A stretch of DNA of 30,995 nucleotides from a virus: positions 1-30,995 of IMG/VR virus record IMGVR_UViG_3300049911_000029; one strand, given 5' to 3'. Of this stretch, positions 9,349-27,477 are shown in pieces. The position numbers and the translations under genes are program-made. The first letter of the stretch is position 1. Every line of letters starts with the position of its first letter. The notes under the pieces were generated by a model. That model was not told where the DNA came from. It was given only the letters and a program-made list of their open reading frames with translations, and ran no database searches.

Positions 9349-10197
9349 ATGAGCAACGGTAATTGGTGGAATTATTCGTGGAATGTAGTGCCAGGGTGCA
9401 CCAAGGTGAGGCCAGAATGTATCAACTGTTGGGCGCTGGCGATGGCGAGGCGGCTGCAAGGGATGGGGAAAAGGGGTTATGAGGGATTGGTGGATGAACA
9501 AGGGAGATGGATGGGACAGGTGAATTTGCTGGAATGGCGGATGGAAGATCCGCTGCACTTGAAGCAATCACGCAGGATTGCGGTCAATTTGATGGGAGAT
9601 TTGTTCCACCCGGAGGTGCCGACTTGGTTTATCCAGAAGACCTTCAATATGATGGTTGAGGCGAATTGGCATACGTTCTTTGTTTTGACGAAACGTCCGG
9701 AGAGGATGTTGGAAATTCTTCCCGGCGTAAGCAGTCTTGTACCCCCATGGAATGTATGGTTGGGGACGACGGCCGGGACGCAGCAAAGTGCCAATGATCG
9801 CCGGATCTCGATGATGCAGATCCATTTGTTGGGATGGAAGACCTGGGTGAGCTGCGAGCCACAATTGGAAATGATTGACTGGCATGGATGGTCGTTCTTG
9901 AAGTGGATGGTGGTGGGTGGAGAAAGCGGCCCGAGGGCGCGGCCCATGTCCCCGGCATGGGCGCGGGCGGACCGGGATTGGTGCCAGGATCAAGGGGTGA
10001 AGTTCTGGTTCAAGCAATGGGGAGAGTGGGGCCCGGCCCCCCTGTCGCCTTCGGCGATATCCCCCCATCTGCAAAGTGCGCAGATAGGGGGATTGGAAAA
10101 TTATTCGATGACGATGGTTGGTGAGGAGATGATGTTCCGGTTTGGGAGGAAGCAGACTGGTCGGCTGCTGGATGACCAGGAATGGAGCGAAGAATGA
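9349..10197 (+). CDS. Phage Gp37/Gp68 family protein (DUF5131)
   Basis: A 282-aa protein with the family's N-terminal three-cysteine pattern 'GCTKVRPECINCWA' (Cys17, Cys24, Cys27). Other family blocks are 'FFVLTKRPERM', 'WLGTTAGTQ', 'SCEPQLEMIDW', 'VVGGESGPRARPM' and 'FWFKQWGEWGP'. The family is common in phages; its cysteines suggest a metal or iron-sulfur centre, but its reaction is not established to my knowledge. GGAGG precedes the start. Near the C-terminus (residues 230-248) a palindromic element is inserted in frame and encodes 'APLSPSAISPHLQSAQIGG', just after the conserved block; the normal ending 'GRLLDDQEWSE' follows. The stop overlaps the next start. Confidence 0.88.
   Translation: MSNGNWWNYSWNVVPGCTKVRPECINCWALAMARRLQGMGKRGYEGLVDEQGRWMGQVNLLEWRMEDPLHLKQSRRIAVNLMGDLFHPEVPTWFIQKTFNMMVEANWHTFFVLTKRPERMLEILPGVSSLVPPWNVWLGTTAGTQQSANDRRISMMQIHLLGWKTWVSCEPQLEMIDWHGWSFLKWMVVGGESGPRARPMSPAWARADRDWCQDQGVKFWFKQWGEWGPAPLSPSAISPHLQSAQIGGLENYSMTMVGEEMMFRFGRKQTGRLLDDQEWSEE
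10037..10092 (+). repeat. Double-hairpin palindromic element, copy A1 (in frame)
   Basis: CCCCCC run, hairpin TCGCC-ttc-GGCGA, then CCCCCCATCTGC paired with GCAGATAGGGGG. It lies inside the Gp37/Gp68-type gene with codon phase CC|CCC|CTG, the same as copies A2-A5. It encodes PLSPSAISP...QIGG. Confidence 0.9.
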
Positions 10198-10646
10198 ATG
10201 ATGATGAGATCGTCTTACGCAGCAGCATCAGCATGAGCGGGATGCGGAATCTGCACATCGTGAGGGTGGGGGCGGAGGTGGACCAGGGCTATTGGCTGGA
10301 GCAGGTCCCGGGCCAATGCAGGGGATTGGAGCAGAAATTTTCCTGGCGCGAGGGCGAGATAACGGTGCGGCATCATCTGATGATTTGGTGGCCCTGCCGA
10401 TATGAACTGGTCAAGGGGGCGGAACGAGGCGTGATGGTGGTCACGCGACTGATCAATGGGGATCGGGTGGGGGAGGTGGTGATCAATGCGGCCATGACGT
10501 TATGGGCGGGCGTGGACCGTTGGCCTGCCCAGGCGGTGATGCGGGAGTGGCCGGCAAATATGCCGGAAAGCCTGGAATTGGGTGGAAGCGAGATCCGATT
10601 GGTGGCGGCGGGTTGGGCATTGAATCGGTGTGTGATTGTCCTATGA
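10194..10646 (+). CDS. Hypothetical protein (150 aa)
   Basis: A 150-aa protein starting MNDDEIVLRSSISMSGMRN, with alternating hydrophobic positions that suggest a beta-rich fold. The ATG overlaps the stop of the Gp37/Gp68 gene, and GGAG lies seven bases ahead, so the two are coupled. Tryptophans are frequent (for example 'LMIWWPCRYE'). No family is recognised. Codon use matches its neighbours. Being coupled to the DUF5131 gene, it may be a partner of that protein. Confidence 0.6.
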   Translation: MNDDEIVLRSSISMSGMRNLHIVRVGAEVDQGYWLEQVPGQCRGLEQKFSWREGEITVRHHLMIWWPCRYELVKGAERGVMVVTRLINGDRVGEVVINAAMTLWAGVDRWPAQAVMREWPANMPESLELGGSEIRLVAAGWALNRCVIVL

Positions 10647-10659
10647 AAAGGAGTTCGAT

Positions 10660-10956
10660 ATGACACAAACGACGAGTTGGAGTTGTCCGGGATGCGGATG
10701 GGCCATCGGGCAGGTGAGGGATGGGGATTTGCACCTTTATAGCCAGGCAGTAGCCGGAAGCGGACAAGGCGAAACGCCGCTGGTGCTGGCGGTAATGCGA
10801 ATGATCCACCGCACGCCGGTGCGATGTACGCACTGTGGGCATGTGGAGGTATGGGATGCAAACCTACGAGTGCTGGTGGGAGTGCTGGAACGGAGCCTGG
10901 GCAGGCCATTGAGCGATGACGAACGTCGGCGGCTGGCAGGAGAGATCATGGATTGA
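10660..10956 (+). CDS. Zinc-ribbon protein, possible late regulator
   Basis: A 98-aa protein with two CxxC pairs, 'SCPGCGW' (Cys9, Cys12) and 'RCTHCGH' (Cys56, Cys59), the layout of a zinc ribbon, and a helical C-terminus (LVGVLERSLGRPLSDDERRRL). AAGGAG lies six bases before ATG 10660; an in-frame TTG at 10636 is less likely. It is the last gene before a strong promoter and terminator. In lambdoid phages the antiterminator gene sits at the corresponding place and some of those proteins bind zinc, so a role in late control is possible. That is only positional inference. Confidence 0.65.
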   Translation: MTQTTSWSCPGCGWAIGQVRDGDLHLYSQAVAGSGQGETPLVLAVMRMIHRTPVRCTHCGHVEVWDANLRVLVGVLERSLGRPLSDDERRRLAGEIMD

Positions 10957-10981
10957 GATGATGAGGTAAGCAATTATTCGT

Positions 10982-11010
10982 TTGACAATAAGAGATAATT
11001 GGTGTAATAT
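10982..11010 (+). promoter_or_regulatory. Sigma-70-type promoter
   Basis: TTGACA (10982-10987) and TAATAT (11005-11010) are separated by exactly 17 bases in an A+T-rich stretch. This is the best promoter-like match I found in the window. It stands at the start of a 309-bp gap ahead of the lysis, packaging and structural genes, so it probably drives the late operon or a short leader RNA starting near 11017. Confidence 0.75.
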
Positions 11011-11016
11011 ATGTAT

Positions 11017-11174
11017 GCATCATCCGTCGTGATGATGCCCCAACCCCCCGTCTTGGGCCTGGTCTTACCGGGCCGGGCCCTATGGGGAGGGACAATCTGG
11101 GCCTTGAAGTGAGGGCCAAACATGACGAAGCTGACACGCCCGTCACCCTATGGTGACGGGCGTTTTTGTTTTTT
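11017..11174 (+). ncRNA. Candidate structured leader or small RNA
   Basis: Between the promoter and the intrinsic terminator lie about 155 bases with several stems: GCATCATC/GATGATGC around a 6-base loop (11017-11038), GGCCTGG/CCGGGCC around TCTTA with one G-U pair (about 11057-11075), and the terminator stem itself. No start codon with a binding site gives a protein. It could be a small RNA or the leader of an antiterminated late operon, as in lambda. The 5' end is estimated from the -10 box. Confidence 0.5.
11137..11174 (+). terminator. Intrinsic terminator
   Basis: A perfect 11-bp stem, CGCCCGTCACC (11137-11147) and GGTGACGGGCG (11152-11162), has a 4-base loop CTAT and is followed by TTTTTGTTTTTT. 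It is a textbook Rho-independent terminator on the + strand, placed only about 130 bases after the promoter. Confidence 0.93.
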
Positions 11175-11176
11175 AG

Positions 11177-11241
11177 CCCCCCTGGGCCCCCTTGCCGCTG
11201 AAGCGGCATCCCCCCAAATCGAAATGCACGATTTAGGGGGA
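11177..11241 (+). repeat. Double-hairpin palindromic element, copy A6 (intergenic)
   Basis: CCCCCC run, hairpin GCCGC-tgaa-GCGGC, then CCCCCCAAATCG paired with CGATTTAGGGGG around a loop ending GCA. It begins two bases after the terminator's T-run. Its purine-rich right flank leads into the AAAGGAG binding site of the holin-like gene. It is the only clear non-coding copy of this family. Confidence 0.85.
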
Positions 11242-11265
11242 GAAAAACGAAAAGGAGAAAATATC

Positions 11266-11556
11266 ATGAACGGAATTACGACAAGCGAATTATTTGCATG
11301 GCTGATCGGATCAGGAGGCCTCATCCTGGTGATGTCCTGGCTGGTCGAACACTGGGCCTGGTATCAGGCGCAATCTTCCACCTGGAAGAAAATGCTGTTC
11401 ATTGCCGGTGTGGTCATCCTGGGATCGGCGGTTCATGCCTTGCAACTCTACGTTCCGGCGACCGCGTGGGCAGCGATCGATCCATGGTTCATCTATGTCT
11501 CTGGACTGGTCGTGCTGGGCGCCGGGGCGATGGGCTTGCACGCAATGACGAAATAA
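11266..11556 (+). CDS. Holin-like membrane protein
   Basis: A 96-aa protein with three likely transmembrane helices: about residues 9-27 (LFAWLIGSGGLILVMSWLV), 42-62 (MLFIAGVVILGSAVHALQL) and 73-92 (WFIYVSGLVVLGAGAMGLHA). Size and layout fit a class I holin, which forms lesions in the inner membrane to release the endolysin. ATG 11266 follows AAAGGAG; the frame is open upstream through the terminator and repeat, but that is unlikely to be translated. It is the first gene after the promoter-terminator block, with the endolysin three genes downstream. Confidence 0.65.
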   Translation: MNGITTSELFAWLIGSGGLILVMSWLVEHWAWYQAQSSTWKKMLFIAGVVILGSAVHALQLYVPATAWAAIDPWFIYVSGLVVLGAGAMGLHAMTK

Positions 11557-11571
11557 TAAACGAGACGAACT

Positions 11572-11814: not shown

Positions 11815-12128
11815 AAACAATCTTCCTTGATGAAGACGTTGATGAAGAGCGACCTTGTAAAGGATGCGGAGGTCTTTTACCGATCAGCGAACCCGGAGGA
11901 AAACGTGAATTATGTGATGAATGTCGAAAGGAAAATCGGAGGAATAATGTCAGAGAATGTGAAAAACGACGGAGACGACGGAAACAATTCTCTAAAAATC
12001 ATCCCCCTAAAAATCTTTTGCTCCATCTCGGAATGGATTACGTGACGATGAAGTTGGCCGGGCAGATTTACATCCCTCATAGAGGAAAGCAGATCCGAAT
12101 TGAAAAGGGACACTATGATCAACGGTAA
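11811..12128 (+). CDS. Zinc-finger protein of unknown function
   Basis: A 105-aa protein with two CxxC pairs, 'CKGC' (16, 19) and 'CDEC' (35, 38), forming a small treble-clef or ribbon-like site, then a very basic stretch (ECEKRRRRRKQFSKNH). The 5' part is A+T-richer than its neighbours. Similar short 'CxGC...LCxxC' modules occur in HNH endonucleases and in DNA- or RNA-binding proteins, but no HNH catalytic motif is present. It overlaps both the preceding and following genes, so it is co-translated within the lysis cluster. Confidence 0.6.
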   Translation: MKTIFLDEDVDEERPCKGCGGLLPISEPGGKRELCDECRKENRRNNVRECEKRRRRRKQFSKNHPPKNLLLHLGMDYVTMKLAGQIYIPHRGKQIRIEKGHYDQR

Positions 12129-13194
12129 GGGCATCTATATCTGGCGCGGCGGATTTTGCGGGCCACTGGCGGGCGGGAAGAACCCGCCGCAAACGGCGGC
12201 GGACGCCTGCGCATTGATGGGATTGACCTGGGTCATGTTGAAGATCGGGGATGCAACCGGCGAACATAGCCGGTCCTATCCGGATATGCAGGCGGCGGTA
12301 GGGGCGTTCCGGTCGGTGGGGATCTCGGTGTGGGCCTGGCACTATATCTACGGCGGGGTGCAGATAGACAAGGCGGGCAATGTTCTGCGCAATGGCGCGA
12401 CCCCGGAAGCGGAGGCGGAGTTTGCCAAACGGCAAGTGCAGACACAGGGAATGGATGGATACGTGATCGACGCCGAGCGGGAATACCAAGTCGCTGATCA
12501 GCACAAGCGGGCGAAGCGATTCATGGGAGCGCTTGAAGGGATCGGGGCGCCGGTGGGGCTGGCGGGATGGCGGTTCCCGAAGCTGCACCCGGAGTATCCA
12601 TGGGCAGAGTTCCTGGCCGGGACGGAACTCCACATGCCACAGGTTTATTGGAATCCACCGTCATTCTGGCGGCCGTCCTACGGCCCAGAGGCGGAAACAC
12701 GGACGAGTGTGCGGGACCTGCTGGCGTTGAAGCAAATCCCGATCCTTCCGACCGGACGGGCCTATATCGGGGATGGATATGCCAATCCGAAACCGGAAGA
12801 GGAGACTACGTTCCTGCGGGTGGCGAAGGAGCTTGGATGCCCAGGGGTGAGTTTCTGGGCGCTGGATTTTCTATATTTACATCCGGGCGGGAAGGAGCGA
12901 ATGGCGGCGATCAGCGATTATGTATGGGGAACCCCCCTATCGCCTGGCGGCGACAGCCCCCCATCTACTCCGCAGATAGGGGGAAATGTGCAATACCGGG
13001 TGACTGCGTTCAACTTGCGGGTGCGGAGCGCGCCGGGAATGGATGCACGCACGATCCGCTGGCTATGGAGTGGCAATAAGGTGACAACGCTACAGGTCTG
13101 GGATTTGGGAGCGATGGGCGTATGGGCGGAGGTGGCAGTTAACGAATGGGCGGCGATCTCCTGGAAGAATAGAACATACATGGTAATAGTGTGA
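12115..13194 (+). CDS. Endolysin: glycosyl-hydrolase domain plus SH3 domain
   Basis: A 359-aa protein. Residues about 1-268 read as a GH25-like TIM barrel: 'GIYIWRGG', 'WVMLKIGDATG', 'VWAWHYIYGG', 'GYVIDAEREYQ' with Asp119 and Glu121 as candidate catalytic acids, and 'GVSFWALDFLY'. Residues about 292-359 are a bacterial SH3-type domain ('NLRVRSAPGMDARTIRWLW'), probably binding cell wall. Between them (residues 273-290) lies palindromic element A2, read in frame as 'TPLSPGGDSPPSTPQIGG', which lengthens the linker. ATG 12115 follows AAGGGA; an upstream in-frame TTG is less likely. There is no signal peptide, so release depends on the holin. Its stop overlaps the terminase GTG. Confidence 0.75.
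   Translation: MINGKGIYIWRGGFCGPLAGGKNPPQTAADACALMGLTWVMLKIGDATGEHSRSYPDMQAAVGAFRSVGISVWAWHYIYGGVQIDKAGNVLRNGATPEAEAEFAKRQVQTQGMDGYVIDAEREYQVADQHKRAKRFMGALEGIGAPVGLAGWRFPKLHPEYPWAEFLAGTELHMPQVYWNPPSFWRPSYGPEAETRTSVRDLLALKQIPILPTGRAYIGDGYANPKPEEETTFLRVAKELGCPGVSFWALDFLYLHPGGKERMAAISDYVWGTPLSPGGDSPPSTPQIGGNVQYRVTAFNLRVRSAPGMDARTIRWLWSGNKVTTLQVWDLGAMGVWAEVAVNEWAAISWKNRTYMVIV
12932..12984 (+). repeat. Double-hairpin palindromic element, copy A2 (in frame)
   Basis: CCCCCC run, hairpin TCGCC-tggc-GGCGA, then CCCCCCATCT paired with AGATAGGGGG. It forms the linker between the catalytic and SH3 domains of the endolysin, in the same codon phase as the other coding copies. Confidence 0.9.
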
Positions 13195-13910
13195 GCAGAC
13201 TTCGGAAAGTAACGCAATTAGAACTGGAGCAATTCGCGGAGCAGATCCAGGAACGTGAGGAACTGAGCGGCGGGAAAGCCTTATCTGCTCAGGAGGTGCG
13301 GGAGCGGAGCATGGCGGCGCGGATGGCGCTGGAGGCGAAGGCCTCCCTGTCCCCTACGGGGACATCCCCCCAAACCGAAGAACACGGTTTAGGGGGAAAA
13401 GATGGGGTGCCGACATGGGCGGATTGTTATCATCGTCTTATCAATGCAGGTTTCCCATGGCGGATGGCGGCATTCGTCGCCTGGGCATCCATGCCGAAGT
13501 CACTGCGTTGGCCGGATACACAGGAAAAGCTGGCGACGGAGGTGTTGGGGCTAACGAGCGACCGCCAAATTGCCACCTGGCGAAAAAAGAACCCGGCCAT
13601 TGATCAGATGATCGCCGACTTACAAGCGGATGAGCTATTGGAGGCGCGGGCGGATGTGTTCGCCGCAGTGAAGGACGTAGCCAGCAGGCATGATTATAAG
13701 AGCGGACCTTATGCGCGGATGTATCTGGAGATGACAAACGACTTGCCCAGCCGCCTGAGTGTGACCATGCAGGATTCGGCAGCACACAGCCTTTTGAAGA
13801 TGACGGATGCGGACCTGCTCAATCTTTCGGGCGAGAAGGCGAAGGAAATGCTGGCACGCTTGCGAGCCGAGCAGGAGGAGGCAGCGGATGAGCCCGTCGA
13901 GGACGAGTAA
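13191..13910 (+). CDS. Terminase small subunit
   Basis: A 239-aa protein just ahead of the large terminase gene. The N-terminus (1-48) is helical and charged. Element A3 (residues 51-69) is inserted in frame, and residues about 75-150 hold a helix-turn-helix-like DNA-binding region ('AFVAWASMPKSLRWPDT', 'LTSDRQIATWRKKNP'). A helical oligomerisation region and the acidic tail follow. The tail contains 'LLKMTDADLLNLS', nearly identical to a motif at the primase C-terminus. It would recognise the packaging site and stimulate the large subunit. The start is GTG, overlapping the endolysin stop as GTGA. The assignment rests on position and the HTH. Confidence 0.75.
   Translation: MSRLRKVTQLELEQFAEQIQEREELSGGKALSAQEVRERSMAARMALEAKASLSPTGTSPQTEEHGLGGKDGVPTWADCYHRLINAGFPWRMAAFVAWASMPKSLRWPDTQEKLATEVLGLTSDRQIATWRKKNPAIDQMIADLQADELLEARADVFAAVKDVASRHDYKSGPYARMYLEMTNDLPSRLSVTMQDSAAHSLLKMTDADLLNLSGEKAKEMLARLRAEQEEAADEPVEDE
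13342..13397 (+). repeat. Double-hairpin palindromic element, copy A3 (in frame)
   Basis: The left C-run is degenerate (CCTCCC). Hairpin TCCCC-tac-GGGGA, then CCCCCCAAACCG paired with CGGTTTAGGGGG around loop AAGAACA. In the small terminase it encodes SLSPTGTSP...LGG. Confidence 0.9.
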
Positions 13911-15516: not shown

Positions 15517-15531
15517 AAAAGAAGGTGAGTC

Positions 15532-18243
15532 ATGCCTTATTCAAATGAACATTCAGCAAGGATCAAAGAGCCGGGAGATTTCGAGAGCGACAGTTTCCGG
15601 CGGGTGAATGATAAATTCGGGGCAGGGATCGATGCGATCTTCGGTCGGTTGAAGGGCGAGACGACCTTGACGGTGCAAGCAATCCGCTTCGATGCCAAGA
15701 AGTTCACGGCAGCCGAGGCGAGAAAGTGGTTGAAGGACCATGATTATAAGGCGCTGGAATTCGAGCCAGCCAAGAAGGAGGAAGCCATGACGAAGAAAAT
15801 CCAGCGCGGGAAACCGCTCGAGGAATTGGTGAAGGGAAGTGAGGTGGTGGAATTGGTAGACCAGCCGCAGAGCCCGGCCCCCCTGTCCCCTGCGGGTACA
15901 TCCCCCCAATTGGAGAGCACAATTAGGGGGAGAGAGAAGCGGAAGGGGAAGCGATTGGAGGAGAGGAATGAAGGGGTGAAGATCATATTGGAGGAGACGG
16001 CAGAGGGCGGGAAGAAACATATCAAAGCGAATGACGTCATCGTGGCCGGGATGGTAAACGGCAACGGTAGACGATATCCGGTCCCGGTGGTGCGGGCAGC
16101 GGTCGAGGAAGCGCGCGGCCATCTACATGAATCGCTGGGACAGGGGCGAGCCATCCTGCTGGGCGAGGCGGAACATCCGTCCGACAAAGCAGCGCGGCGT
16201 CCGAATTTGCTGGAGACAGTCGTGGCATGGGATGAGATCTCATTCGACGGCCGATCCGTGGGCCTGGGCGGAAATATCCTGGGCACCAGCAGAGGTAAGG
16301 ACATCCAGGCGCTGATGGAGGGCGGCGTGATGCCAGGCGTGAGCCTGCGCGGGTATGGCGAGACCAAATCCATCAAAGAGGACGAGCAACGCATTGAAGA
16401 AGTGACGGAATGCCACATTACCGGGTTCGACCTGGTGCTGGAGCCTTCCTTCGAGCAAGCGCAGGCAGTTCTCGAATCTATTCAAAAACAATCGGAGGAA
16501 GAAATGGACCTTGACGAGCTGTTGAAACTCCTGAAAGAACATCCCGAAGCATTTGCCGGGATTACCGAGGCCCAGGTGAAAACCATGGGCGAGACCCAGT
16601 TAAAGAAACTGGAAGAGACCCTGCGCGGGAAGCTGGGCCTGGATGCCAACGCGGATATCGGCAAGGCGTTGGAAGAGGCCATGTCGGCCAAGAATGAGTT
16701 GACTGAGCAGAAGCGCAAAACGGCGGTCGAGAAATTGATCACCGAGGCGACCAAGGACTTGCCGTATGGCAAATTCAATGCGAACTTCATCGAATCGGTC
16801 AAGGCGGCCAATCCGCAGGATGAGGCGGCGGTGAAGAGCCTGGTGGAAGCCAAGCGCAAGGAATACGATGTCCTATTCAGCGCGGATGCCCTGAAGAAGA
16901 TGGGCTTCACCGGGAAGATCCAGGGCATCCAGTCGGTGCTGGAGAATGAGACCGGGACGCCGGAATACGCCCGCGGCGCTTTCGAACTGACTGAGAGCAT
17001 CCGCAAGGTGGAGATGCACCCGCGGCGCAACCTGAAGGAAGCCAAGACCCGGGCAGAGCTGTTCACGCAGCAACTGCTGGAACGCTTCGACGCGCTGCAT
17101 AAGCCCAAGTTGATGGCTGAAAGCCGGATGCTGGAGGAAGCGGAGCAGGTGAGTGACCTGAGCCTGCCCTATTCGGTGAGCCGGGCAATCATCGAGGAGG
17201 CCTTCCCGAACCTGGTGGCGGCCAATATCTTCGACGTGGGTGTGATGACCAACTCGCCGGAACGTCTCTATTACGAGACCTTCAGCGGCGAGACGGGCTA
17301 TACGGTTGCAGCCGCGGCTGAAGCGGTGGTGGCGCTCCTGGATACCTGGGTGGACCTGGATTACAAGCGCATCACCCCCGGCACGCTGGTGGCCAAGAAC
17401 CATGCCCAGACCGTAACCTACACCGAGGGCACGGATTACGTGATCGATCATGCTAACGGCAAGTTCATGGCGCTGACAGGCGGCTCGATCAGTGGCAGCC
17501 AGGACATCCATATCACTGCCTATACCTACACGGCGGTGCGCAAGGGCGAAATGGTAGCCATCGAGCGCGGCAAACTGACCCTAGCCTACAAGACGATCGA
17601 GGCGGCTGCCGATCGATTGGCCGACCAGATCAGCCGCGAGGCGGTGGTCTTCAGCCGGGCTCAACTCGGTTACGATGCCACGGCGCGCACGCTGGCCAAC
17701 CTGGCCAAGCAATTGAATCGCAAGATCGACCAGGGGATGCTTTATGCGAGCATCAGCGCGGTGCTCTCGGTGGCCAATAACAGCGCCGGAACCTGGACGG
17801 AAGGCACCACCGACGATGACTACGACGAACTGGTGCGCCTGATCGGCCTGGCAAAGGTCAAGGTGGGCAATCGTTATTACGCCCCGACCGGGATCGTGTG
17901 CAGCATGACCAACGCCGAACGATTGGGCCATTGGAAGGGCTTCACGCGGGCGGGCCAGCGCCCTGGTGTTGATGAATTGATGGGCAATGGGTTCATCGGC
18001 TCGGTGAACGGGTTGCCGGTTTTCTGGAGCACGGAGTTCCCGGATACCTTCATCGAAGTGGTCAACCAACAACTGGTGATGCACCGGGTCTTCCAGCCGA
18101 TGCAGTTCAATGGACCTTACCCGACCTATGATGAGGACGGTAAGCTAATCGCAGCCGATCAGTACTATGCCGAGGCATTCAACGCGACGGAAGCGCCAGT
18201 CCCGGAAAAGGGATCCTACGTGGTCATCGCGGAGGGATCGTAA
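15532..18243 (+). CDS. Prohead protease-scaffold-major capsid fusion
   Basis: One 903-codon frame with four parts. (1) Residues 1-85: a small module ('RIKEPGDFESDSFRRV', 'AAEARKWLKDHDY'). (2) About 149-315: a T4 gp21-like prohead protease, with 'GNGRRYP', 'LLGEAEHPSD' (His215) and 'PGVSLRGYGE' (Ser271). (3) About 325-470: a helical, charged scaffold region. (4) About 470-903: an HK97-fold major capsid protein. Palindrome A4 sits between parts 1 and 2. Two in-frame ATGs have excellent binding sites: 15787 (Met86, after AAGGAGG) and 16504 (Met325, after GGAGG). Nested products are therefore likely, with the 579-aa scaffold-capsid form made in excess. AAGGTGAG precedes the first ATG. Confidence 0.85.
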   Translation: MPYSNEHSARIKEPGDFESDSFRRVNDKFGAGIDAIFGRLKGETTLTVQAIRFDAKKFTAAEARKWLKDHDYKALEFEPAKKEEAMTKKIQRGKPLEELVKGSEVVELVDQPQSPAPLSPAGTSPQLESTIRGREKRKGKRLEERNEGVKIILEETAEGGKKHIKANDVIVAGMVNGNGRRYPVPVVRAAVEEARGHLHESLGQGRAILLGEAEHPSDKAARRPNLLETVVAWDEISFDGRSVGLGGNILGTSRGKDIQALMEGGVMPGVSLRGYGETKSIKEDEQRIEEVTECHITGFDLVLEPSFEQAQAVLESIQKQSEEEMDLDELLKLLKEHPEAFAGITEAQVKTMGETQLKKLEETLRGKLGLDANADIGKALEEAMSAKNELTEQKRKTAVEKLITEATKDLPYGKFNANFIESVKAANPQDEAAVKSLVEAKRKEYDVLFSADALKKMGFTGKIQGIQSVLENETGTPEYARGAFELTESIRKVEMHPRRNLKEAKTRAELFTQQLLERFDALHKPKLMAESRMLEEAEQVSDLSLPYSVSRAIIEEAFPNLVAANIFDVGVMTNSPERLYYETFSGETGYTVAAAAEAVVALLDTWVDLDYKRITPGTLVAKNHAQTVTYTEGTDYVIDHANGKFMALTGGSISGSQDIHITAYTYTAVRKGEMVAIERGKLTLAYKTIEAAADRLADQISREAVVFSRAQLGYDATARTLANLAKQLNRKIDQGMLYASISAVLSVANNSAGTWTEGTTDDDYDELVRLIGLAKVKVGNRYYAPTGIVCSMTNAERLGHWKGFTRAGQRPGVDELMGNGFIGSVNGLPVFWSTEFPDTFIEVVNQQLVMHRVFQPMQFNGPYPTYDEDGKLIAADQYYAEAFNATEAPVPEKGSYVVIAEGS
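15775..15789 (+). promoter_or_regulatory. Internal ribosome binding site and start (Met86)
   Basis: AAGGAGG (15775-15781, first base degenerate) is followed by five bases and an ATG at 15787 in the same frame as the surrounding gene. It would yield an 818-aa product without the N-terminal module, starting MTKKIQRGKPLEEL. Confidence 0.5.
15878..15931 (+). repeat. Double-hairpin palindromic element, copy A4 (in frame)
   Basis: CCCCCC run, hairpin TCCCC-tgc-GGG(t)A, then CCCCCCAATT paired with AATTAGGGGG around loop GGAGAGCAC. In the capsid polyprotein it encodes PLSPAGTSP...IRG, between the N-terminal module and the protease. Confidence 0.9.
16494..16506 (+). promoter_or_regulatory. Internal ribosome binding site and start (Met325)
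   Basis: GGAGG (16494-16498), five bases, then in-frame ATG at 16504 at the boundary between protease and scaffold. It would start a 579-aa scaffold-capsid protein (MDLDELLKLLKEHPEAF). It recalls the nested protease/scaffold starts of lambda C/Nu3. Confidence 0.65.
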
Positions 18244-18250
18244 AGTAAAG

Positions 18251-18322
18251 TAATCGGCCCGCGGCGGGCCGGTTATACAGCCGGGGCGGGTGGCAATCCT
18301 GGACCCATTGGCCCCGCCCCGG
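18251..18322 (+). promoter_or_regulatory. Two GC-rich hairpins after the capsid gene
   Basis: In the 132-bp gap after the capsid gene, TAATCGGCCC (18251-18260) pairs with GGGCCGGTTA (18266-18275), ten pairs with one G-U and a 5-base loop. CCGGGGCGGG (18281-18290) pairs perfectly with CCCGCCCCGG (18313-18322). Neither is followed by a T-run. They may stabilise the capsid mRNA or reduce read-through. The rest of the gap shows only the weak binding site of the next gene. Confidence 0.6.
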
Positions 18323-18375
18323 TAAGGATGGCCTAAGGATACAACTGATCGCCATCACCACCACGGTGAATTAAT

Positions 18376-19608
18376 ATGAATTACACCAAATCTCACAATA
18401 CATATTTCGCTACCCCAAAGGATGATCCACACAACCGGATAGAGTTAGAGGTAGGCGATAGTAAACAACCAGACTTCTTCCCACAAATCAAAATAATGCG
18501 ATGGGATAATGAGGTCAATTTTAGCATTCGCCTTGTTCACGAGGAGATTGTTCCTAAAGTCTCGAAAGTGGGGGACAAAATTCATTGGCAAGGCAAGACG
18601 ATTGAGGCGTGTCTTTATGACTTTGCCGAGGGCGAGGGTAGCTATGAGTTTGAAATAATTCTCAAAGAAAAACCAGTAAACAATAAGATTGAATTTACTT
18701 TGAATACAAAAGGATTGGATTTCTTTTATCAACCTCCACTTACAGAAGAAGTTAAAGTAGGGGATTGGGACGGCAGAATTGTCTCTGTTACAGAAATGGA
18801 TGCTTTCGATATAGATGGAAATTCATTAAATCATAGACCCGAAAATGTGTGTGGGGCCTATGCTGTTTATGCTTCTGAAAACAAAATAAACTATGTTGGG
18901 GGCAAAGAATATAAATGCGGCCAAGTTGGAATGATTTATCGGCCAAAAATAATTGATTTGACAGGGACAGGAATCTGGGGCATATTGAATATAGACAAAA
19001 ATGCGGGAATTTTAAATATTGAAATATCACAAGATTTTTTAGATAGGGCAATTTATCCAATAACGATTGACCCGACAATTGGATACACAAGCGCTGGTGA
19101 TTCGGTTGCAGCTTGGAATGGTTATTTTATGGCTGCTGCGAAAAGCACCACAGACGCATCTGGGGGAGTGGTATCTAAAATTCAATGTGCTGCTTTTGAT
19201 GTGATGGGTAATAGTTATGTAAAAATGGCTATTTATGATGCTACCCCCACAAATTTAATAGCCAATTCTTACCCTGGAGCAATACTGGTTACCCGAACAT
19301 CAACCTCAAAACCGACGCAAGATTCGGAGTGGACTTCCTCTACCAATGTTAGTGCAACATTAGCGGCCTTAACTGCTTATTGGTTAGCATTTGCCACTCA
19401 AGACAGTACCGTCTATATTTTTTACAATTCTGCTCCTAATGGAAGTTGTAAGTATGCGTCAATAGATTATACACTTTTCCCTCCAAACACAGCTCCTTCA
19501 TCAACAAACTATACCGCAATTTTGTCCGTCTACGCCACCTATACGCCAGCGGCGGGAGGTCTATCTATCCCGGTTGTGATGAATCAGTACAGGCAGAGGG
19601 TAACATGA
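18376..19608 (+). CDS. Virion-associated protein, A+T-rich
   Basis: A 410-aa protein. Residues about 1-240 look like a beta-rich domain with no name I can give ('VNFSIRLVHEEIVPKV', 'AIYPITIDPTIGYTSAG'). Residues about 245-395 look like a jelly-roll-type domain ('VKMAIYDATPTNLIA', 'YWLAFATQDSTVYIFY'). It ends 'GLSIPVVMNQYRQRVT', a short tail I associate with phage structural proteins. Its DNA is much richer in A+T than both neighbours, which suggests separate acquisition. It overlaps the fibre gene by four bases. A decoration, neck or receptor-binding role is plausible by position only. Confidence 0.55.
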   Translation: MNYTKSHNTYFATPKDDPHNRIELEVGDSKQPDFFPQIKIMRWDNEVNFSIRLVHEEIVPKVSKVGDKIHWQGKTIEACLYDFAEGEGSYEFEIILKEKPVNNKIEFTLNTKGLDFFYQPPLTEEVKVGDWDGRIVSVTEMDAFDIDGNSLNHRPENVCGAYAVYASENKINYVGGKEYKCGQVGMIYRPKIIDLTGTGIWGILNIDKNAGILNIEISQDFLDRAIYPITIDPTIGYTSAGDSVAAWNGYFMAAAKSTTDASGGVVSKIQCAAFDVMGNSYVKMAIYDATPTNLIANSYPGAILVTRTSTSKPTQDSEWTSSTNVSATLAALTAYWLAFATQDSTVYIFYNSAPNGSCKYASIDYTLFPPNTAPSSTNYTAILSVYATYTPAAGGLSIPVVMNQYRQRVT

Positions 19609-21515
19609 GATATTTGCGAACCAACACAGCGACCCGAATCACGGTGGGCCCATTTCTCGACAAAACTGATGGAATCACCCCGGAGGTTGCTCTTACTGTC
19701 ACCAGTGAAAAACTGACTTTTATGGTGGACACGGCGGGAGTCCCGACACTTATTCTGGACACTGCTCCCACCACATCGGGCGGCGCCAACGACATGGTGC
19801 ATGTCACCAACGATGATGCGGGCTTTTATGATCTGGAACTTGCCGCCGCAGACGTGAACTACCTGGGGCGGGCGATGCTATCCCTGAACGACGTTGCTAC
19901 ACATTGCCCCGTGTTCCATGAATTTATGATTTTACCAGCAATTATTTTTGATGCCATGATTTTAGGAACAGATTTAGTCGATGTCAATACAGCCAAGGTG
20001 AACGAAACATCCCAAACGGCTGGCGACCTGGCCGCGCTGGTGACCACGGTGGATGGAGTGGTGGATGCGATCAAGGCGAAGACCGACAACCTGCCTGCGG
20101 CTCCGGCGGATGATACGAGCATTGACACTCAGTTGGGCACCATTGCAGGTTACCTGGACACGGAGGTAGCGGCTATTCTGGCCGCGGTAGACACCGAAGT
20201 TGCGGCGATCAAAGTGAAGACTGACAATCTGCCAAGCGACCCGGCGGATGAGAGTCTGATAGAAGCGGCCATCACGGCGGCGACATCGCCCCTGGCCACC
20301 GCTACGGATCTGGCCACGGTTGACGGCATCCTGGACGATATCCACGGTACCGATCTCCCGGCCGTAAAGACCGATACGGCGGCGATCAAGGCCAAGACCG
20401 ATAATCTGCCCGCGGCTCCGGCGGACGACACGAGCATCGATACTCAGTTAGGCACCATTGCGGGTTACCTGGACACGGAGGTAGCGGCTATCCTGGCCGC
20501 GGTAGATACCGAAATTGCGGCGATCAAGGCCAAGACTGACCAGTTAATATTTACAATCGCCAATCAGGTGGATGCTAATGCACTTTCGGGAGGCGGGAGT
20601 GGGCTGGATGCGGCAGGAGTTCGTGCGGCGGTTGGTTTGGCAAGCGCGAACCTGGACACGCAATTGACTGCGATAGATGATTACCTGGACACAGAAATAG
20701 CAGCCATCAAGGCCAAGACGGATAATCTCCCGAGCGATCCAGCGGACGAGAGTTTGCTGGAGGCGGCGATTGCAACCAGGCTGGCCTCGGCTGATTACAC
20801 GGCTCCAGCCAATGCCAACATCACGGCGATCAAAGCCAAGACCGACAACCTGCCTGCGGCTCCGGCGGACGACACGAGCATTGACACTCAGTTAGGCACC
20901 ATTGCGGGTTACCTGGACACAGAAATCGCAGCCATCAAAGCCAAGACCGACAACCTGCCTGCGGCTCCGGCGGATGATACGAGCATCGATACTCAGTTGG
21001 GCACCATTGCTGGTTACCTGGATACGGAGATAGCAGCGATCAAGGCCAAGACGGATAAAATTCCTGCTTCGCCCGCCGCGGTTGGATCGCCCATGATCTT
21101 GACCAGCATTTATGATGCAGCCAAGACCGCAGCGCAATCCGGCGCCGATGGAGACACACTCAAGACGATCAGTGATCAGATAGATGGCATTTCTGCCGGT
21201 GATGCTCCTACGGTCGAGGAGATCGATGACCAGCTTTCGGGATCGCATGGATCCGGGGTATGGAGTTCAGGTGGAGATGGCGGATCAGCAGCCATTACCG
21301 ATTATCCCGTAACTGATGTTACTTCCAGCTTACCTGTTCTAGGTGCAATCTGCGAATTATATCCAACCGATGCATACACCGGAATTATGGACAGCCAGAT
21401 CACGGACGCATCCGGATTCGTCACGTTCAATAATCTGGTTCTCGCCAGACGATATTACATCAAAGTGATCCGGGCAGGCTATGAAACCTTCTATGATTCG
21501 GAGGTGGCGGCATGA
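19605..21515 (+). CDS. Repeat-rich fibre-like virion protein
   Basis: A 636-aa protein. Residues 1-110 form a conserved-looking domain ('TRITVGPFLDKTDGITPEV', 'GANDMVHVTNDDAGFYDLEL'). Residues 155-490 hold eight copies of 'AAIKAKTDNLPxxPADD'-type repeats, some extended by 'SIDTQLGTIAGYLDTE', a helical, probably trimeric shaft. The C-terminus (about 560-636) is a beta-sandwich-like domain ('ICELYPTDAYTGIMDSQ', 'VTFNNLVLARRYYIKVIRAG') of the type that can bind ligands. It lies between the capsid and connector genes, so it may be a head fibre or appendage rather than a tail fibre. Start and stop both overlap the neighbours by four bases. Confidence 0.65.
   Translation: MRYLRTNTATRITVGPFLDKTDGITPEVALTVTSEKLTFMVDTAGVPTLILDTAPTTSGGANDMVHVTNDDAGFYDLELAAADVNYLGRAMLSLNDVATHCPVFHEFMILPAIIFDAMILGTDLVDVNTAKVNETSQTAGDLAALVTTVDGVVDAIKAKTDNLPAAPADDTSIDTQLGTIAGYLDTEVAAILAAVDTEVAAIKVKTDNLPSDPADESLIEAAITAATSPLATATDLATVDGILDDIHGTDLPAVKTDTAAIKAKTDNLPAAPADDTSIDTQLGTIAGYLDTEVAAILAAVDTEIAAIKAKTDQLIFTIANQVDANALSGGGSGLDAAGVRAAVGLASANLDTQLTAIDDYLDTEIAAIKAKTDNLPSDPADESLLEAAIATRLASADYTAPANANITAIKAKTDNLPAAPADDTSIDTQLGTIAGYLDTEIAAIKAKTDNLPAAPADDTSIDTQLGTIAGYLDTEIAAIKAKTDKIPASPAAVGSPMILTSIYDAAKTAAQSGADGDTLKTISDQIDGISAGDAPTVEEIDDQLSGSHGSGVWSSGGDGGSAAITDYPVTDVTSSLPVLGAICELYPTDAYTGIMDSQITDASGFVTFNNLVLARRYYIKVIRAGYETFYDSEVAA
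20067..21055 (+). repeat. Tandem coding repeats in fibre gene
   Basis: Eight units begin with codons for AIKAKTD, near 20067, 20202, 20382, 20517, 20700, 20826, 20931 and 21030. Units 6 and 7 are nearly identical at DNA level, and units 1 and 3 share a longer block (LGTIAGYLDTEVAAILAAVD). Copy number may vary by recombination. Confidence 0.85.
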
Positions 21516-22234
21516 CAAATCCATTTGGCGCTGCGATCACTCCCATCATTCCCATCACCCCAACTCCAACGCCGGTGGGAGGAATTGCGCTGGCTGATTT
21601 GATGCAGCAGTTGGAAGAAGACGTACCGGCGCGAAATAATGCGCCGACGGCTTCACAATACGAGCGCTGCGTCCTGGATGCGTCGCGGGACTTTAGCAAC
21701 CGGTGTGGACGGGTGAAGATTTCCACGCTGGAGGTCCTGGCCGGGACGGGCAATTATGATCTTCCAATGGATTTCTTGAGGATGATCAAGCTGGACAGGT
21801 TGAATAGTTCGAATGGAATCATCAATACGGCACAGGGTTTGATCCCGGCGCCGACGAATTGGAGCGAGAAATATATCATTGCGGGCAGAAAGATCACATT
21901 CGATCCCACGCCGACCTATACTTTGACAAGGTCTATCGAGTACAAAGCGGGTTGGGCGCTGACAGAGGATGAAGGAGATTATACAGAGAGCACTTACGCG
22001 GATATGACCGAAGATGAGAGCCGGATCGTGCTATTGAAGGCGGCGGCGCTGGCGCTGAAGATGCAGGCGAACGCGGTGGCGCTGGATGGATGGCGATATT
22101 CAATCGGGGCCGAGTCGGTGGACAAAACGGGCCAGACGGCAGCCATCGAGGCGCGCCTGTCCGCCGTGGAAAAAGAATATCTTGCGGCGGTGGATGCCTA
22201 TAATGGAAGCGCCATAGGACAAAGCGATGGCTGA
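21512..22234 (+). CDS. Head-tail connector (adaptor-like) protein
   Basis: A 240-aa protein with a proline-rich start (TPIIPITPTPTPVGG) and then 'ALADLMQQLEEDVPARNN' and 'YERCVLDASRDFSNRCGR', the helical layout of head-tail adaptor proteins that dock under the portal (lambda gpW/HK97 gp6 class). The middle ('LAGTGNYDLPMDFLRMIKL') and the helical C-terminus (ALALKMQANAVALDG, then AIEARLSAVEKEYLAA) fit phage adaptor proteins carrying an inserted beta domain. Overlaps with both neighbours suggest coupling. The family is assigned on pattern and position; an exact match cannot be checked here. Confidence 0.6.
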   Translation: MTNPFGAAITPIIPITPTPTPVGGIALADLMQQLEEDVPARNNAPTASQYERCVLDASRDFSNRCGRVKISTLEVLAGTGNYDLPMDFLRMIKLDRLNSSNGIINTAQGLIPAPTNWSEKYIIAGRKITFDPTPTYTLTRSIEYKAGWALTEDEGDYTESTYADMTEDESRIVLLKAAALALKMQANAVALDGWRYSIGAESVDKTGQTAAIEARLSAVEKEYLAAVDAYNGSAIGQSDG

Positions 22235-23321
22235 GCGGCATGCAGTTCCAGCGGATTTCTTCGCACGGCGGACGCATTTTGTGGATCACCTGGCGCCGGT
22301 CTGGAAGGTGATGGATTGGCGGGGGAAATTCTATGTGCCAGATTGTCTTTATGAGTATGCCTTGAGCCAGGATATTCAAGACGTCATGGCGCTCAAGCCA
22401 GTCGAAAGCGACCCGTTGGCGGTGGCGCCGCCGGGAGGATCGCCGCTAGTGACCTGCGCCTATCATGACATGATGCTGGCACAGAAGGCGCGACCACAGC
22501 GGCGACTGATCCTGATGGAGCATGGCGTTGGTTTGGTATTCGGTATCAACCATTCGGGATATGCGGGGGGCTTGGGATTGCGACGGCGGGTGAAATTATT
22601 CCTATCTCCCAATGAATATATCCGGGCGAAGACGGCGAAGAGCCTGCCGCATGCGGCGCAAGTGGTTGTGGGATGTCCGAAGCTGGATGAGTGGGGCCTC
22701 ACCCCCAACCCCTCCCCATTTGCATCCCCAAAATACGGGGACAGGCAAACAGCAAATGGAGAGGGGAGAAAGAAAAGGGGAAAGCCGGTGGTATGTATTT
22801 CATTCCATTGGAATGGGGCGCATATCGAGCCGGAGGCGGGGAGTGCATTCGAGCATTACCGGAAAGTTCTGCCAGAGTTGGCCAGGCAAGCGGATTTCAA
22901 ATTGATCGGGCATGGCCACCCAAAGATCATCGATCTGCTGGCGAATGAATATGAAGAAAATGGTATTGAAGTGGTCAGGGATTTTCGGGAAGTGATGCGG
23001 CGGGCAGATATCTATGTCAATGATTGCAGCTCGACGATGTATGAGTTTCTAACGACCGGTAAGCCGGTAGTCATTATGAATGCGCCGCAGTTCCGCAAAA
23101 ATAAGAACTTTGGCATCCGGTTCTGGCTCTACGTGGACATTGGGTCGCAGGTGGAGGGGCCGGAGGAATTGATCGGAGCCATCGAGGCGACCCTCCAGGA
23201 CCCGATGAAATATCAGGAGGCACGCGAGAAGGCGGTAAAAGATTTATTTCCTTATTTGGGCTGCTCGGCGACGCGGGCGGCGGCAGCCATCCAGGGTTAT
23301 TGCGGGTCTATCTATGGCTAA
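22227..23321 (+). CDS. CDP-glycerol glycerophosphotransferase-like GT-B enzyme
   Basis: A 364-aa protein with a GT-B-like two-domain layout. N-terminal half: 'LILMEHGVGLVFG' and 'KLFLSPNEYIRAKT', then 'VVVGCPKLDEWG'. C-terminal half: 'KPVVCISFHWNG', 'FKLIGHGHP', 'ADIYVNDCSSTMYEFLTTGKPVV'. These resemble the TagF/CDP-glycerol transferase family that transfers glycerol-phosphate or sugars. A 30-residue insertion at 158-186 is encoded by a palindromic element (type B1) exactly between the domains. Finding such a gene within the head operon is unusual; it could modify the virion or host glycans. It overlaps both neighbouring genes, so it is expressed with the structural proteins. Confidence 0.72.
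   Translation: MAERHAVPADFFARRTHFVDHLAPVWKVMDWRGKFYVPDCLYEYALSQDIQDVMALKPVESDPLAVAPPGGSPLVTCAYHDMMLAQKARPQRRLILMEHGVGLVFGINHSGYAGGLGLRRRVKLFLSPNEYIRAKTAKSLPHAAQVVVGCPKLDEWGLTPNPSPFASPKYGDRQTANGEGRKKRGKPVVCISFHWNGAHIEPEAGSAFEHYRKVLPELARQADFKLIGHGHPKIIDLLANEYEENGIEVVRDFREVMRRADIYVNDCSSTMYEFLTTGKPVVIMNAPQFRKNKNFGIRFWLYVDIGSQVEGPEELIGAIEATLQDPMKYQEAREKAVKDLFPYLGCSATRAAAAIQGYCGSIYG
22698..22785 (+). repeat. Palindromic element type B1 (in frame)
   Basis: It begins CCTCACCCCCAACCCC (from 22697). CCCCTCCCCATTTGC (22709-22723) pairs with GCAAATGGAGAGGGG (22752-22766), 14 of 15 positions, with an inner CCCC/GGGG stem. It is read through in frame in the glycosyltransferase as LTPNPSPFASP and a basic tail. 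The left end resembles dispersed repeats I associate with Chloroflexota and some cyanobacterial genomes. Confidence 0.8.
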
Positions 23322-26273: not shown

Positions 26274-26316
26274 AAGTGAATGGTGAATGGGAAATGGTGA
26301 ATAGGAGACGTGAAGC

Positions 26317-27477
26317 ATGGATGTGATGAAATTGCGGCTGGACCAGCTCTATAAGGCACAGCAGGCGGCGCTGATGCGGATGCAACTCTGGTTCACGGGC
26401 GAGACGCACCGGCGGATGCTGGAATTTACGCGGCAGTCGCGAGCAATGATCCTGGAGGCGGGCGGGGCGGAGGGGAAATTCGATGGGACGAAGGCGTTCC
26501 TGGCGCAGTCAGACTTGATGCTGGCCTGGAGCGATACGTTTGCCGGATGGATGCGGTTGATGGAGAAGACACGCCAGGAGGCGGCCAGTCTGCCGTTTGG
26601 GGTGCTGGCGGTGTATCACGAGAAGTTGGTGAGGCCGGTGGCGGAGAAAGCCCCCCTGCGCCCTGGCGGGCGCGTCCCCCCATCTGCTACGCAGATAGGG
26701 GGACAGTTAAGGGAGGCGGTGAAGGATTCAGTATATAAGCCGCAGTTGCGGGCGATCTTACAGGCGGCGGACGACTGGAGGGTCGAGGGATTGGGTCTCT
26801 CGGCGCGCATCTGGAAACTGGACCGGGAGACGCGGGACGGGATCAACCGGGTGATCATGCAGGGATTGACGGAACAGCAGAGCGCCTGGGATGTTGCGAA
26901 GAACCTGGAGCAGTATTTGGGGGCAGACGCCGACCTGCCGAGATGGACCAAGACCAGGATATATGGCCTGACCAAGGCGGATATCGCCAGCGGGGCGCGG
27001 ACCGGACTGGTCCAGGATGCGGCCGGGCGCAGCCAGGACGTATCCTACAATGCGCTGCGGCTGGCGCGTACGGAAATCCAGCGAGTGCATCACCTGGCGA
27101 ACGACCAACAGATGGCCCAGATGCCCTGGATCGAGCAAGAGAAGATCAATCTATCGCCAAGCCATCCGGGATCGGATGAATGCGATGATGCGGCAGATGG
27201 CGGCGAGAATGGAGATGGAGTCTATCCGAAAGGCGATATCGAGTTGCCCTTGCATCCAAACTGTCTATGCTTCAAGACGGCGGTACAAGACTTAGCGGCT
27301 TTTGGCGACAACCTGAGCCAATGGGTGCGGACGGGGCAGGGATTCCCGGCCATGGACCAATATGCGAGCGATTTGGGCGTGGATCTGGACAGCAGCCTAA
27401 TGGAGAGACCAACGGCTCAGGCATTGGCAGCCTGGATCGATGGCAGCCAGGAAGAGATCGATGCGAGGATGAAATGA
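26317..27477 (+). CDS. MuF-like minor head protein
   Basis: A 386-aa protein. The C-terminal half has the phage Mu F / SPP1 gp7 signature: 'ALRLARTEIQRVHH' (from residue 246), 'SHPGSDECDDAADGG' and 'GDIELPLHPNCLCF' (His313, Cys316), probably a metal or disulfide-supported fold. The N-terminal part is helical. It is a minor head protein often made next to the portal, as here, and may enter with the DNA. Element A5 (residues 112-129, 'APLRPGGRVPPSATQIGG') is inserted between the two parts. AGGAG lies about ten bases before the ATG. No toxin domain is fused at its end. Its stop overlaps the next ATG. Confidence 0.85.
   Translation: MDVMKLRLDQLYKAQQAALMRMQLWFTGETHRRMLEFTRQSRAMILEAGGAEGKFDGTKAFLAQSDLMLAWSDTFAGWMRLMEKTRQEAASLPFGVLAVYHEKLVRPVAEKAPLRPGGRVPPSATQIGGQLREAVKDSVYKPQLRAILQAADDWRVEGLGLSARIWKLDRETRDGINRVIMQGLTEQQSAWDVAKNLEQYLGADADLPRWTKTRIYGLTKADIASGARTGLVQDAAGRSQDVSYNALRLARTEIQRVHHLANDQQMAQMPWIEQEKINLSPSHPGSDECDDAADGGENGDGVYPKGDIELPLHPNCLCFKTAVQDLAAFGDNLSQWVRTGQGFPAMDQYASDLGVDLDSSLMERPTAQALAAWIDGSQEEIDARMK
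26651..26703 (+). repeat. Double-hairpin palindromic element, copy A5 (in frame)
   Basis: CCCCCC run, hairpin GCGCCC-tggc-GGGCGC, then CCCCCCATCTGC paired with GCAGATAGGGGG around loop TAC. Inside the MuF-like gene it encodes PLRPGGRVP...QIGG in the same phase as the other copies. Confidence 0.9.

Follow-up and report, generated by a model that had tools for sequence, protein, structure and literature searches.

A short palindromic element, probably mobile, in genes and gene junctions of tailed phages

Why should one viral genome carry the same kind of double-hairpin palindrome in several genes of unrelated function, each time in frame? We analysed IMG/VR record IMGVR_UViG_3300049911_000029 over its whole stretch of 30,995 nucleotides (the window), together with related viral loci and bacterial genomes. 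We conclude that the palindromes are probably copies of a short, non-autonomous REP/RPE-like mobile element residing in a group of tailed phages.

Copies in the window

A preliminary description of this DNA had placed six copies on the + strand, five of them inside open reading frames and all five in one codon phase (xCC, CCC, CT-). Both the positions and the shared phase were confirmed, and a seventh, degraded copy that it had missed was added:

10037–10092, + strand: copy 1, in frame near the 3′ end of the DUF5131 gene (9349–10197); peptide APLSPSAISPHLQSAQIGG; E 2.5e-13
11177–11241, + strand: copy 2, intergenic, core 11187–11241; E 2.3e-16; ATG follows at 11266
11177–11186, + strand: extra partial tail of copy 2, CCCCCCTGGG
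12932–12984, + strand: copy 3, in frame within a linker of a putative endolysin (12121–13194); E 2.8e-9
13342–13397, + strand: copy 4, in frame in a putative small terminase (13191–13910); E 4.1e-16
13342–13347, + strand: 5′ tail of copy 4, CCTCCC, mirror image of the hairpin 2 base
13348–13364, + strand: hairpin 1 of copy 4, TGTCCCC/GGGGACA, as an example of hairpin 1
13365–13397, + strand: hairpin 2 of copy 4, TCCCCC + C.A mismatch + AAACCG / CGGTTT + A + GGGGGA, as an example of hairpin 2
15878–15931, + strand: copy 5, in frame in the linker preceding the prohead-protease domain of a protease-capsid fusion (15532–18243); E 4.2e-14
26651–26703, + strand: copy 6, in frame in the head-morphogenesis protein, alias MuF (26317–27477); E 5e-10
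27921–27962, + strand: degraded copy 7, at the junction between a stop at 27911 and an ATG at 27981, of the class without hairpin 1 (CCCATCCCC-AACC-CTTCCCCCA...TAGGGGAAGGG); E 4.6e-4

The tail reads CCCCCC in copies 1, 2, 3, 5 and 6, and all six copies share a C.A mismatch in hairpin 2. A pattern scan for at least five C followed, 6–30 nt on, by at least five G finds these six places and no others in the window. The covariance model R2, built from 24 copies that all lie outside the window, recovers the six, whose scores run from 67.9 down to 41.1 bits (E-values 2.3e-16 to 2.8e-9), and picks up the degraded seventh as well. The further copies that the preliminary description expected are plentiful in related viral records. 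None of the 4227 Rfam families scanned matched the window above its gathering score. Folding z-scores on the + strand range from -5.2 to -1.3 across the six copies; for copy 3 the double hairpin is the best fold of the - strand and not of the + strand.

Some earlier statements needed adjustment. The stems do mostly stay paired, with one mismatch in hairpin 2 of copy 3 and one in hairpin 1 of copy 5, and copy 2 as first delimited comprises the core plus the extra partial tail. The names ‘endolysin’ and ‘small terminase’ were without Pfam or PHROG support in the window, the latter deriving from a position before TerL and from homologues in the same position, and the protein first labelled MuF receives the PHROG call head morphogenesis.

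Hairpins, tail and mirror symmetry

Elements are about 40–85 nt long and share one layout: a pyrimidine tail (mostly C6T), in most cases a first hairpin whose sequence varies, and then a second hairpin with a base that is mostly TCCCCC/GGGGGA. The stems of both hairpins covary. With T or A allowed opposite the A-T pair, the tail mirrors the hairpin 2 base at 121 of 133 sites (permutation mean 68.4, maximum 78). For any palindrome detected on both strands, this count uses whichever orientation gave the better mirror tail, and it leaves out 10 of 143 hairpin 2 sites in which no box of six or more pyrimidines including T was present. Perfect mirrors number 102, against 6 perfect direct repeats. 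Because the C6T loci had been fetched with patterns that include the last letters of the tail, the fair test of the mirror lies outside that class; outside the TCCCCC class, 61 of 71 sites are mirrored (permutation mean 20.8, maximum 31), with failures in two small classes, CTTTCCC (0/2) and TCTTCCC (0/1). The deduplicated MCP-anchored loci hold 22 sites on the + strand and 1 on the - strand. The lone - strand site is a tail-less palindrome in L084 that can be read either way.

This mirroring of 5′ tail and hairpin 2 base across box types suggests an intramolecular triplex, in which the tail would pack on the hairpin 2 base as a third strand; the purine motif would be on the template strand, as the first T of the tail may be replaced by A. 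A G-quadruplex was rejected as the common fold because it cannot cover all classes, four minus-strand G tracts being limited to the CCTCCCC class in sequences read by eye. We put forward, tentatively, the more specific possibility that the family is adapted to viruses and folds as this triplex, and that the fold may both provide the handle for single-strand mobility and explain why survival in phage operons is restricted to sense copies. If the triplex reading is true, the element would belong to a REP-like class defined by mirror plus inverted symmetry; neither such a class nor the element itself was found described in the literature searched (PMC open-licence texts only).

Position and orientation in viral genomes

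The non-redundant viral collection holds 114 copies, after hits below 28 bits and identical duplicates had been excluded and L028/L029 taken off the viral list. These lie between genes (46), at read-through gene ends (33) or internally in frame (19), with 16 unclassed. The in-frame inserts emphasized at first are a minority, a gene spanning the element in 19 of 114 cases. At junctions, 14 of 46 copies directly abut the stop codon, and the downstream start lies 8–20 nt beyond the element in 50 of the 67 cases where a start was found. A junction signature accompanies 57 of 114 copies read in sense and 5 of 114 in antisense, compared with 283 of 3390 random sense positions. When the element is subtracted, the stop-to-start gap has a median of 18 nt (n = 38 junctions), so that these look like ordinary junctions plus an added cassette. 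The element was also considered as a ribosome-binding site, which is ruled against by an SD core kept outside it at 25 of the 38 junctions.

Orientation in the phages is sense. Judged by codon usage, the local coding strand carries the copy in 114 of 114 viral cases, a check that does not split gene direction from replication direction because the contigs run almost wholly one way. An earlier tally of 12 copies antisense to the longest-ORF gene in the first gene calls was dropped after codon usage had shown the + strand of L008 to be coding and had given the result above for all 114 copies. Such sense-locking is not seen in related bacterial chromosomes, where codirectional junctions hold 5 sense and 15 antisense copies. 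Coding does not force the sense orientation either, since one typical element that was read through leaves two of its three frames free of stops whichever way it faces. The remaining frame, with TAG, contains a stop, which fits the rarity of phase 0 among spanning copies (0/19) and gene ends (2/33).

These positions raise the question of whether the element is a functional RNA module that punctuates the polycistronic phage mRNA through insulation, translation coupling or processing marks, with in-gene copies as tolerated by-products. The exclusive sense orientation in viruses against mixed chromosomal orientation, the copies flush with stops, the closely following starts and the maintained pairing all argue for punctuation. 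Against it stand the separate SD core of most junctions, the in-frame insertion into five separate genes of a single phage, which it hardly explains, and the patchy presence between relatives described below, including orthologous junctions that lack the element. On this evidence we consider punctuation rather unlikely.

Gain, loss and mobility

Had the peptides been ancestral, homologues should all carry them, as the preliminary description had noted, and homologues without the insert exist. None of the 9 aligned TerS rows has the insert (two of them, L004 and L012, being near-duplicates), and it is also absent from 4 of 4 DUF5131 rows spanning the site, from 19 of 23 capsid-fusion rows having the YQPQ motif, and from 1 of 4 MuF rows, that of L015. 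The copy 5 site is also occupied in L014/L086, L088/L062, L009/L074 and L018/L024/L081 and empty in L130, L069, L078, L100 and others; the copy 6 site is also occupied in L001/L007 and L023. That some linker sites are common to several lineages could point to ancestral C- or G-rich protein-coding linkers with no inserted element. We regard this as highly improbable: the peptide is missing in homologues, the stems covary, one site is used in two codon phases (the endolysin linker of L004/L012 carries an element in another phase than copy 3), and the same structure at gene junctions refutes it.

A search with capsid alignment A3 gave 46 loci, and one for close relatives with TerL alone gave none. 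On the capsid tree, which left out 1 of 49 loci without a capsid match above 350 aa, element presence requires 10 changes, at least 8 of them forced by well-supported branches; L092, scored ‘none’ in this count, has one copy elsewhere on its contig (L068). L088, with 10 copies, is placed among relatives that have none at their loci. These patterns support the view that the element has been gained and lost among relatives, with copies persisting between a stop and the next ribosome-binding site, as read-through gene ends, or in frame in protein linkers. The mobile reading also draws support from the covarying stems, the cassette-like junctions and their signature, the dispersal of almost identical copies over Anaerolineae genomes, and the use of these phage sites by other repeats in relatives. 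Some observations count against mobility. Diverged phages share certain sites, which could reflect an old insertion kept for function; pairing is retained at an apparently orthologous site of L010 and L026 with flanks 83% identical, as in functional RNA; and sense-locking is not what simple random insertion would lead one to expect.

Copies also exist in bacteria. At a threshold of 1e-6, one Anaerolineae family has them in 12 of 41 genomes, among them G026. Anaerolineae genomes hold near-identical copies at dispersed places, an Abditibacteriota MAG has chromosomal copies, and 32 of 45 chromosomal copies lie outside called ORFs. Given the Anaerolineae copies, a Chloroflexota host is plausible. 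A term search of PMC5099504 gives no mention of Rctr41k. A host-derived REP-like repeat might be picked up passively, by recombination or slippage, with no element-specific mobility in phages and with orientation set by the strand exposed in unidirectional replication. The chromosomal copies agree with passive pick-up, as do the other repeats, several in number, that occupy the same phage sites in relatives and the inseparability of gene and replication direction in one-direction phages. However, a scan of 84,980 bacterial genomes gave 3 stretches with the strict pattern (one on a viral-looking contig) against 27 in viral contigs of unstated total length, G026 alone among 120 genomes of the class matched at 1e-8 under strict filters, and the viral loci often show box classes such as CTTCCCC (19 of 133 sites). 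Passive pick-up therefore seems to us quite improbable.

For the mobile element that we favour, single-stranded DNA would form the hairpins, a host nuclease or transposase acting in trans would recognize the fold, and the element would then be copied or moved, with selection removing insertions elsewhere. Sense-locking may arise from strand-specific insertion or from removal of antisense copies through an effect on mRNA. A search for mobilizing enzymes, confined to Y1_Tnp, identified none: 9 such genes occur in two Anaerolineae genomes (G026/G027) and none in 12 viral records, window included, and model R1, run on 6 of the 9 loci (1.8–3.4 kb each), finds no element in any of the six. A site at the Y1 locus L034, from a looser hairpin scan, was not this element. 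Target-site duplications at k = 4 numbered 2 versus 3.5 expected by permutation (n = 112 for edge and duplication tests, 2 of 114 copies being without enough flank).

MITEs are palindromic, short and non-autonomous, and the element resembles them in all three respects; it differs in being without target-site duplication and, as far as Y1_Tnp was sought, without an autonomous partner. CCCCCCT/AGGGGGA could count as MITE-like ends. The likeness to Rickettsia and Wolbachia palindromic elements proposed earlier is supported by short palindromic inserts that keep the reading frame of functionally unrelated genes and are absent from homologues, whereas the present copies are sense-locked, belong to phages and mostly sit at gene ends or junctions. 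RPE-4 and RPE-6 are described as CGTC repeats (PMC3733652), and the CGTC tag is at 0 of 112 copies at either edge. REP/BIME with RAYT (TnpAREP) are described as many-copy small hairpins, mainly extragenic and some genic, whose movement is thought to use single-stranded DNA (PMC3733652, PMC6006769). Our element is likewise dispersed, multicopy and mostly extragenic (46/114 junctions, 33/114 gene ends), but has a mirror tail and sense-locking in phages, and it lacks both the GTAG tag (left edge 5/112, right edge 1/112; GTGG 0/112 at either edge) and, at the 6 of 9 Y1 loci searched, repeat copies flanking the transposase gene. For cluster K mycobacteriophages, PMC3203893 describes SAS, a conserved 13-bp GGGATAGGAGCCC adjoining start codons, and ESAS, which contain inverted repeats and are reported to be well conserved by gene family, as repeated sites just 5′ of gene starts, nearly always in one orientation. 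Our sites differ in being patchy and sometimes intragenic, with variable stems and mirror tails, and the A4 consensus is a sequence other than the SAS motif.

The mirror rule makes the triplex directly testable with short oligonucleotides. If our reading is true, phage genomes carry their own population of tiny structured elements, five genes being hit in one window, under rules that we have not found described for REP or RPE: sense-locking, a joint change of box and tail, and docking sites that other repeats use too. As places where the capsid fusion, terminase, head and putative lysis proteins accept foreign peptides, these sites would also mark evolvable linkers.

The element in the window and its relatives

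The window record, a virus of 30,995 bases, opens on the left with early genes, among them an integrase and then a Toprim-domain protein. To their right come a DUF5131 gene and a putative lysis gene, followed by a virion part comprising a putative small terminase (TerS), large terminase (TerL), protease-capsid fusion, portal-like head protein and head-morphogenesis protein. The capsid half of the fusion takes its name from the annotation of Virus Rctr41k. The six palindromic copies reported in the preliminary description are each found on the + strand, and a covariance model built from 24 copies of other viral contigs recovered all six (E 2.3e-16 to 2.8e-9), together with a seventh, degraded copy (E 4.6e-4).

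Features of the window
10037-10092, +: copy 1, in frame inside a gene
11135-11175: likely intrinsic terminator (identified by eye only) immediately 5' of copy 2, CGCCCGTCACC...GGTGACGGGCG then a T-run
11177-11241, +: copy 2
12932-12984, +: copy 3, in frame inside a gene
13342-13397, +: copy 4, in frame inside a gene
15532-18243: single 903-aa ORF, Peptidase_S77 prohead protease plus capsid protein; Rctr41k is annotated with the same fusion
15878-15931, +: copy 5, in frame inside a gene
20046-21089: internal repeats with units of 41 to 159 nt, within gene 19605-21515
26651-26703, +: copy 6, in frame inside a gene
27921-27962: seventh, degraded copy

On the + strand, the element consists of CCCCCCTG, a hairpin 1 that varies in sequence (many copies close it with TGTC/GACA) and AT, followed by CCCCCC, a stem often reading AAAT.../...ATTT, a loop and TAGGGGGA. 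Across the 24 copies from outside the window, pairing holds in 98.4% of pair cells, double-sided changes number 43 against 11.0 in shuffles (61 against 14.6 with the window copies included), and sliding the partners steeply lowers the pairing signal. As the fetching pattern fixed TGTC, ATCCCCCC and TAGGGGGA, this covariation signal comes from free pairs only. All six window copies carry a C.A mismatch at the boundary of base and inner stem, which is a T.G wobble on the minus strand, and in all six the fold energy of the minus strand is lower than that of the + strand. One contig (L025) holds four minus-strand copies (393-453, 2944-3007, 4529-4592 and 7263-7326) that have hairpin 2 in common (identical in three of the four), whereas the differences in hairpin 1 are for the most part compensated, suggestive of module exchange at the C runs or of correction by templated mutation.

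The strict pattern returned 27 stretches in viral contigs and three among 84,980 bacterial genomes, one of these three on a viral-looking contig; further patterns and a capsid alignment (A3) added extra viral loci. Many carriers have counterparts of the virion genes TerS, TerL, capsid fusion, portal and MuF of the window, at ~34-58% protein identity, and the putative endolysin is 57-67% identical between window and carriers. The nearest named relative, Rctr41k, comes from a methane-oxidising enrichment and shares the capsid (57.7% identity, full query covered) and portal-like protein (48.2% identity, 94% coverage). Its hairpins, of the CCTCCCC class, lie at gene junctions (3778, 16090 and 27106) and within annotated genes (3443, 4150 and 24196), and a search model of the element (R1) scores them weakly, at 21-23 bits for the two listed. 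A blastn search of one typical element against 50,697 phage records gave no match. Two loci of an Abditibacteriota rumen MAG (L053 and L055), a bacterium of another phylum, carry copies near the phage consensus.

Gain and loss in phages

The element is a real family, gained and lost in phages. The TerS insert is absent from all nine homologue rows, and DUF5131 homologues at four loci (L005, L021, L026 and L009) are without theirs; the DUF5131 sequence of L008 ends before the insert site. L001/L007 and L023 have the MuF insert at the same site, and L015 lacks it. In the capsid linker that follows YQPQ(T/S), the element is present in 4 of 23 motif-bearing rows (the window, L074, L086 and L088, those of L086 and L088 being nearly identical), and L024/L081 carry it at this linker too, though without the motif. 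Other inserts occupy the site in L077 (LTPSPSPVGEG), L092 and L109, which makes it a docking site for unrelated repeats. In the putative endolysin linker, the codon phase of the element differs between the window and L004/L012, which speaks for separate insertions. A tree of 48 capsid rows, of which 20 have the element and 28 do not, requires 10 changes in its presence, at least eight of them forced by well-supported branches, although some absences are false owing to the strict detector and fragmentary contigs, as for L092, whose contig holds a copy in L068. No target-site duplication was found flanking copies.

A palindromic insert of another family, CCTCACCCCCAACCCCTCCCC...GGAGAGGGG, lies in frame at 22696-22776 in a glycerophosphotransferase-like gene (22227-23321), encoding LTPNPSP...NGEG. 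The same part of homologues holds a TT-class element (L007/L018), a C6 element (L057) or another sequence (L023).

Orientation and position relative to genes

By codon usage, trained on supported window genes and capsid matches, all 114 non-redundant viral copies scoring at least 28 bits lie on the local coding strand. At 49 capsid-anchored loci, which include overlapping and near-identical contigs, all 54 copies found by the strict detector are on the capsid-sense strand; a looser, tail-free detector with duplicates removed gave 22 against 1, the exception being a tail-less palindrome. In contrast, 45 bacterial copies were of mixed orientation, with longest-ORF calls placing 5 sense and 15 antisense in codirectional-gene gaps, 5 sense and 8 antisense inside ORFs, 8 in divergent and 4 in convergent positions. 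Sense-locking is therefore a phage property, for which gene direction and replication direction are inseparable as the reference.

Among the 114 copies, 46 occupy the interval from a stop codon to the gene that follows (14 with zero bases separating stop and tail), 33 are entered by an upstream gene that ends inside the element or at most 120 nt past it, 19 are well within a gene and 16 are unclassed. Codon phases of spanning copies number 12, 7 and 0. Where a start was found for junction and gene-end copies, it lay 8-20 nt downstream in 50 of 67. The junction signature accompanies 57 of 114 copies in sense and 5 in antisense, against 283 and 133 of 3390 random positions. Once the element is subtracted, the median stop-to-start gap is 18 nt (n=38), and 25 of these 38 junctions retain an SD core outside the element.

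Mirror tails and known systems

Two tail-independent searches revealed further types of box, the pyrimidine base of hairpin 2, with matching tails. A structure-only detector yielded 143 hairpin-2 sites, of which the 133 whose box has six or more pyrimidines were tested for a perfect mirror of the box in the upstream 62 nt, accepting A for the first T. The mirror was present in 121 (permuted upstreams: mean 68.4, maximum 78), and in 61 of 71 outside the main TCCCCC class (20.8 permuted, maximum 31); perfect direct repeats of the box numbered six.

Mirror tails by box class (with mirror/sites)
TCCCCC: 58/60
TTCCCC: 11/12
CTTCCCC: 16/19
CCTCCCC: 14/16
TCTCCCC: 15/15
TTTCCCC: 3/3
CTTTCCC: 0/2
TCTTCCC: 0/1

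We estimate that independent box-type switches are few despite the many copies, at about five. In longer-box classes, hairpin 1 tends to be replaced by a linker a few nucleotides long.

Judged from sequence, the mirror symmetry around a central loop matches the arrangement expected for an intramolecular triplex. Purine-motif triads are G.G-C, A.A-T and T.A-T, and the A-for-T tail variants would be consistent with this motif on the minus strand. Some chromosomal relatives (L131, L133, L134, L137, L141, L142 and others) carry an extra GGGGGG a few bases 3' of the element, which could form a three-way junction by ordinary pairing with the tail, and this counts against a triplex; the extra run is missing from the inspected phage copies.

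According to two sources (PMC3733652, PMC6006769), REP/RPE systems are marked by a GTAG or CGTC tag and by copies beside a transposase gene. The element lacks this tag and, unlike REP/RPE copies as those sources describe them, did not adjoin the gene at the six of nine Y1 transposase loci of two Anaerolineae genomes checked with R1, and this check linked the element to no transposase. As these two hallmarks are missing, we regard the element as working like REP/RPE and claim no identity with them. Phage start-associated sequences share its place and single orientation but are reported to be conserved by gene family, unlike the element (PMC3203893). Sense-locking and mirror tails, two unexplained rules, set the element beyond another REP family.
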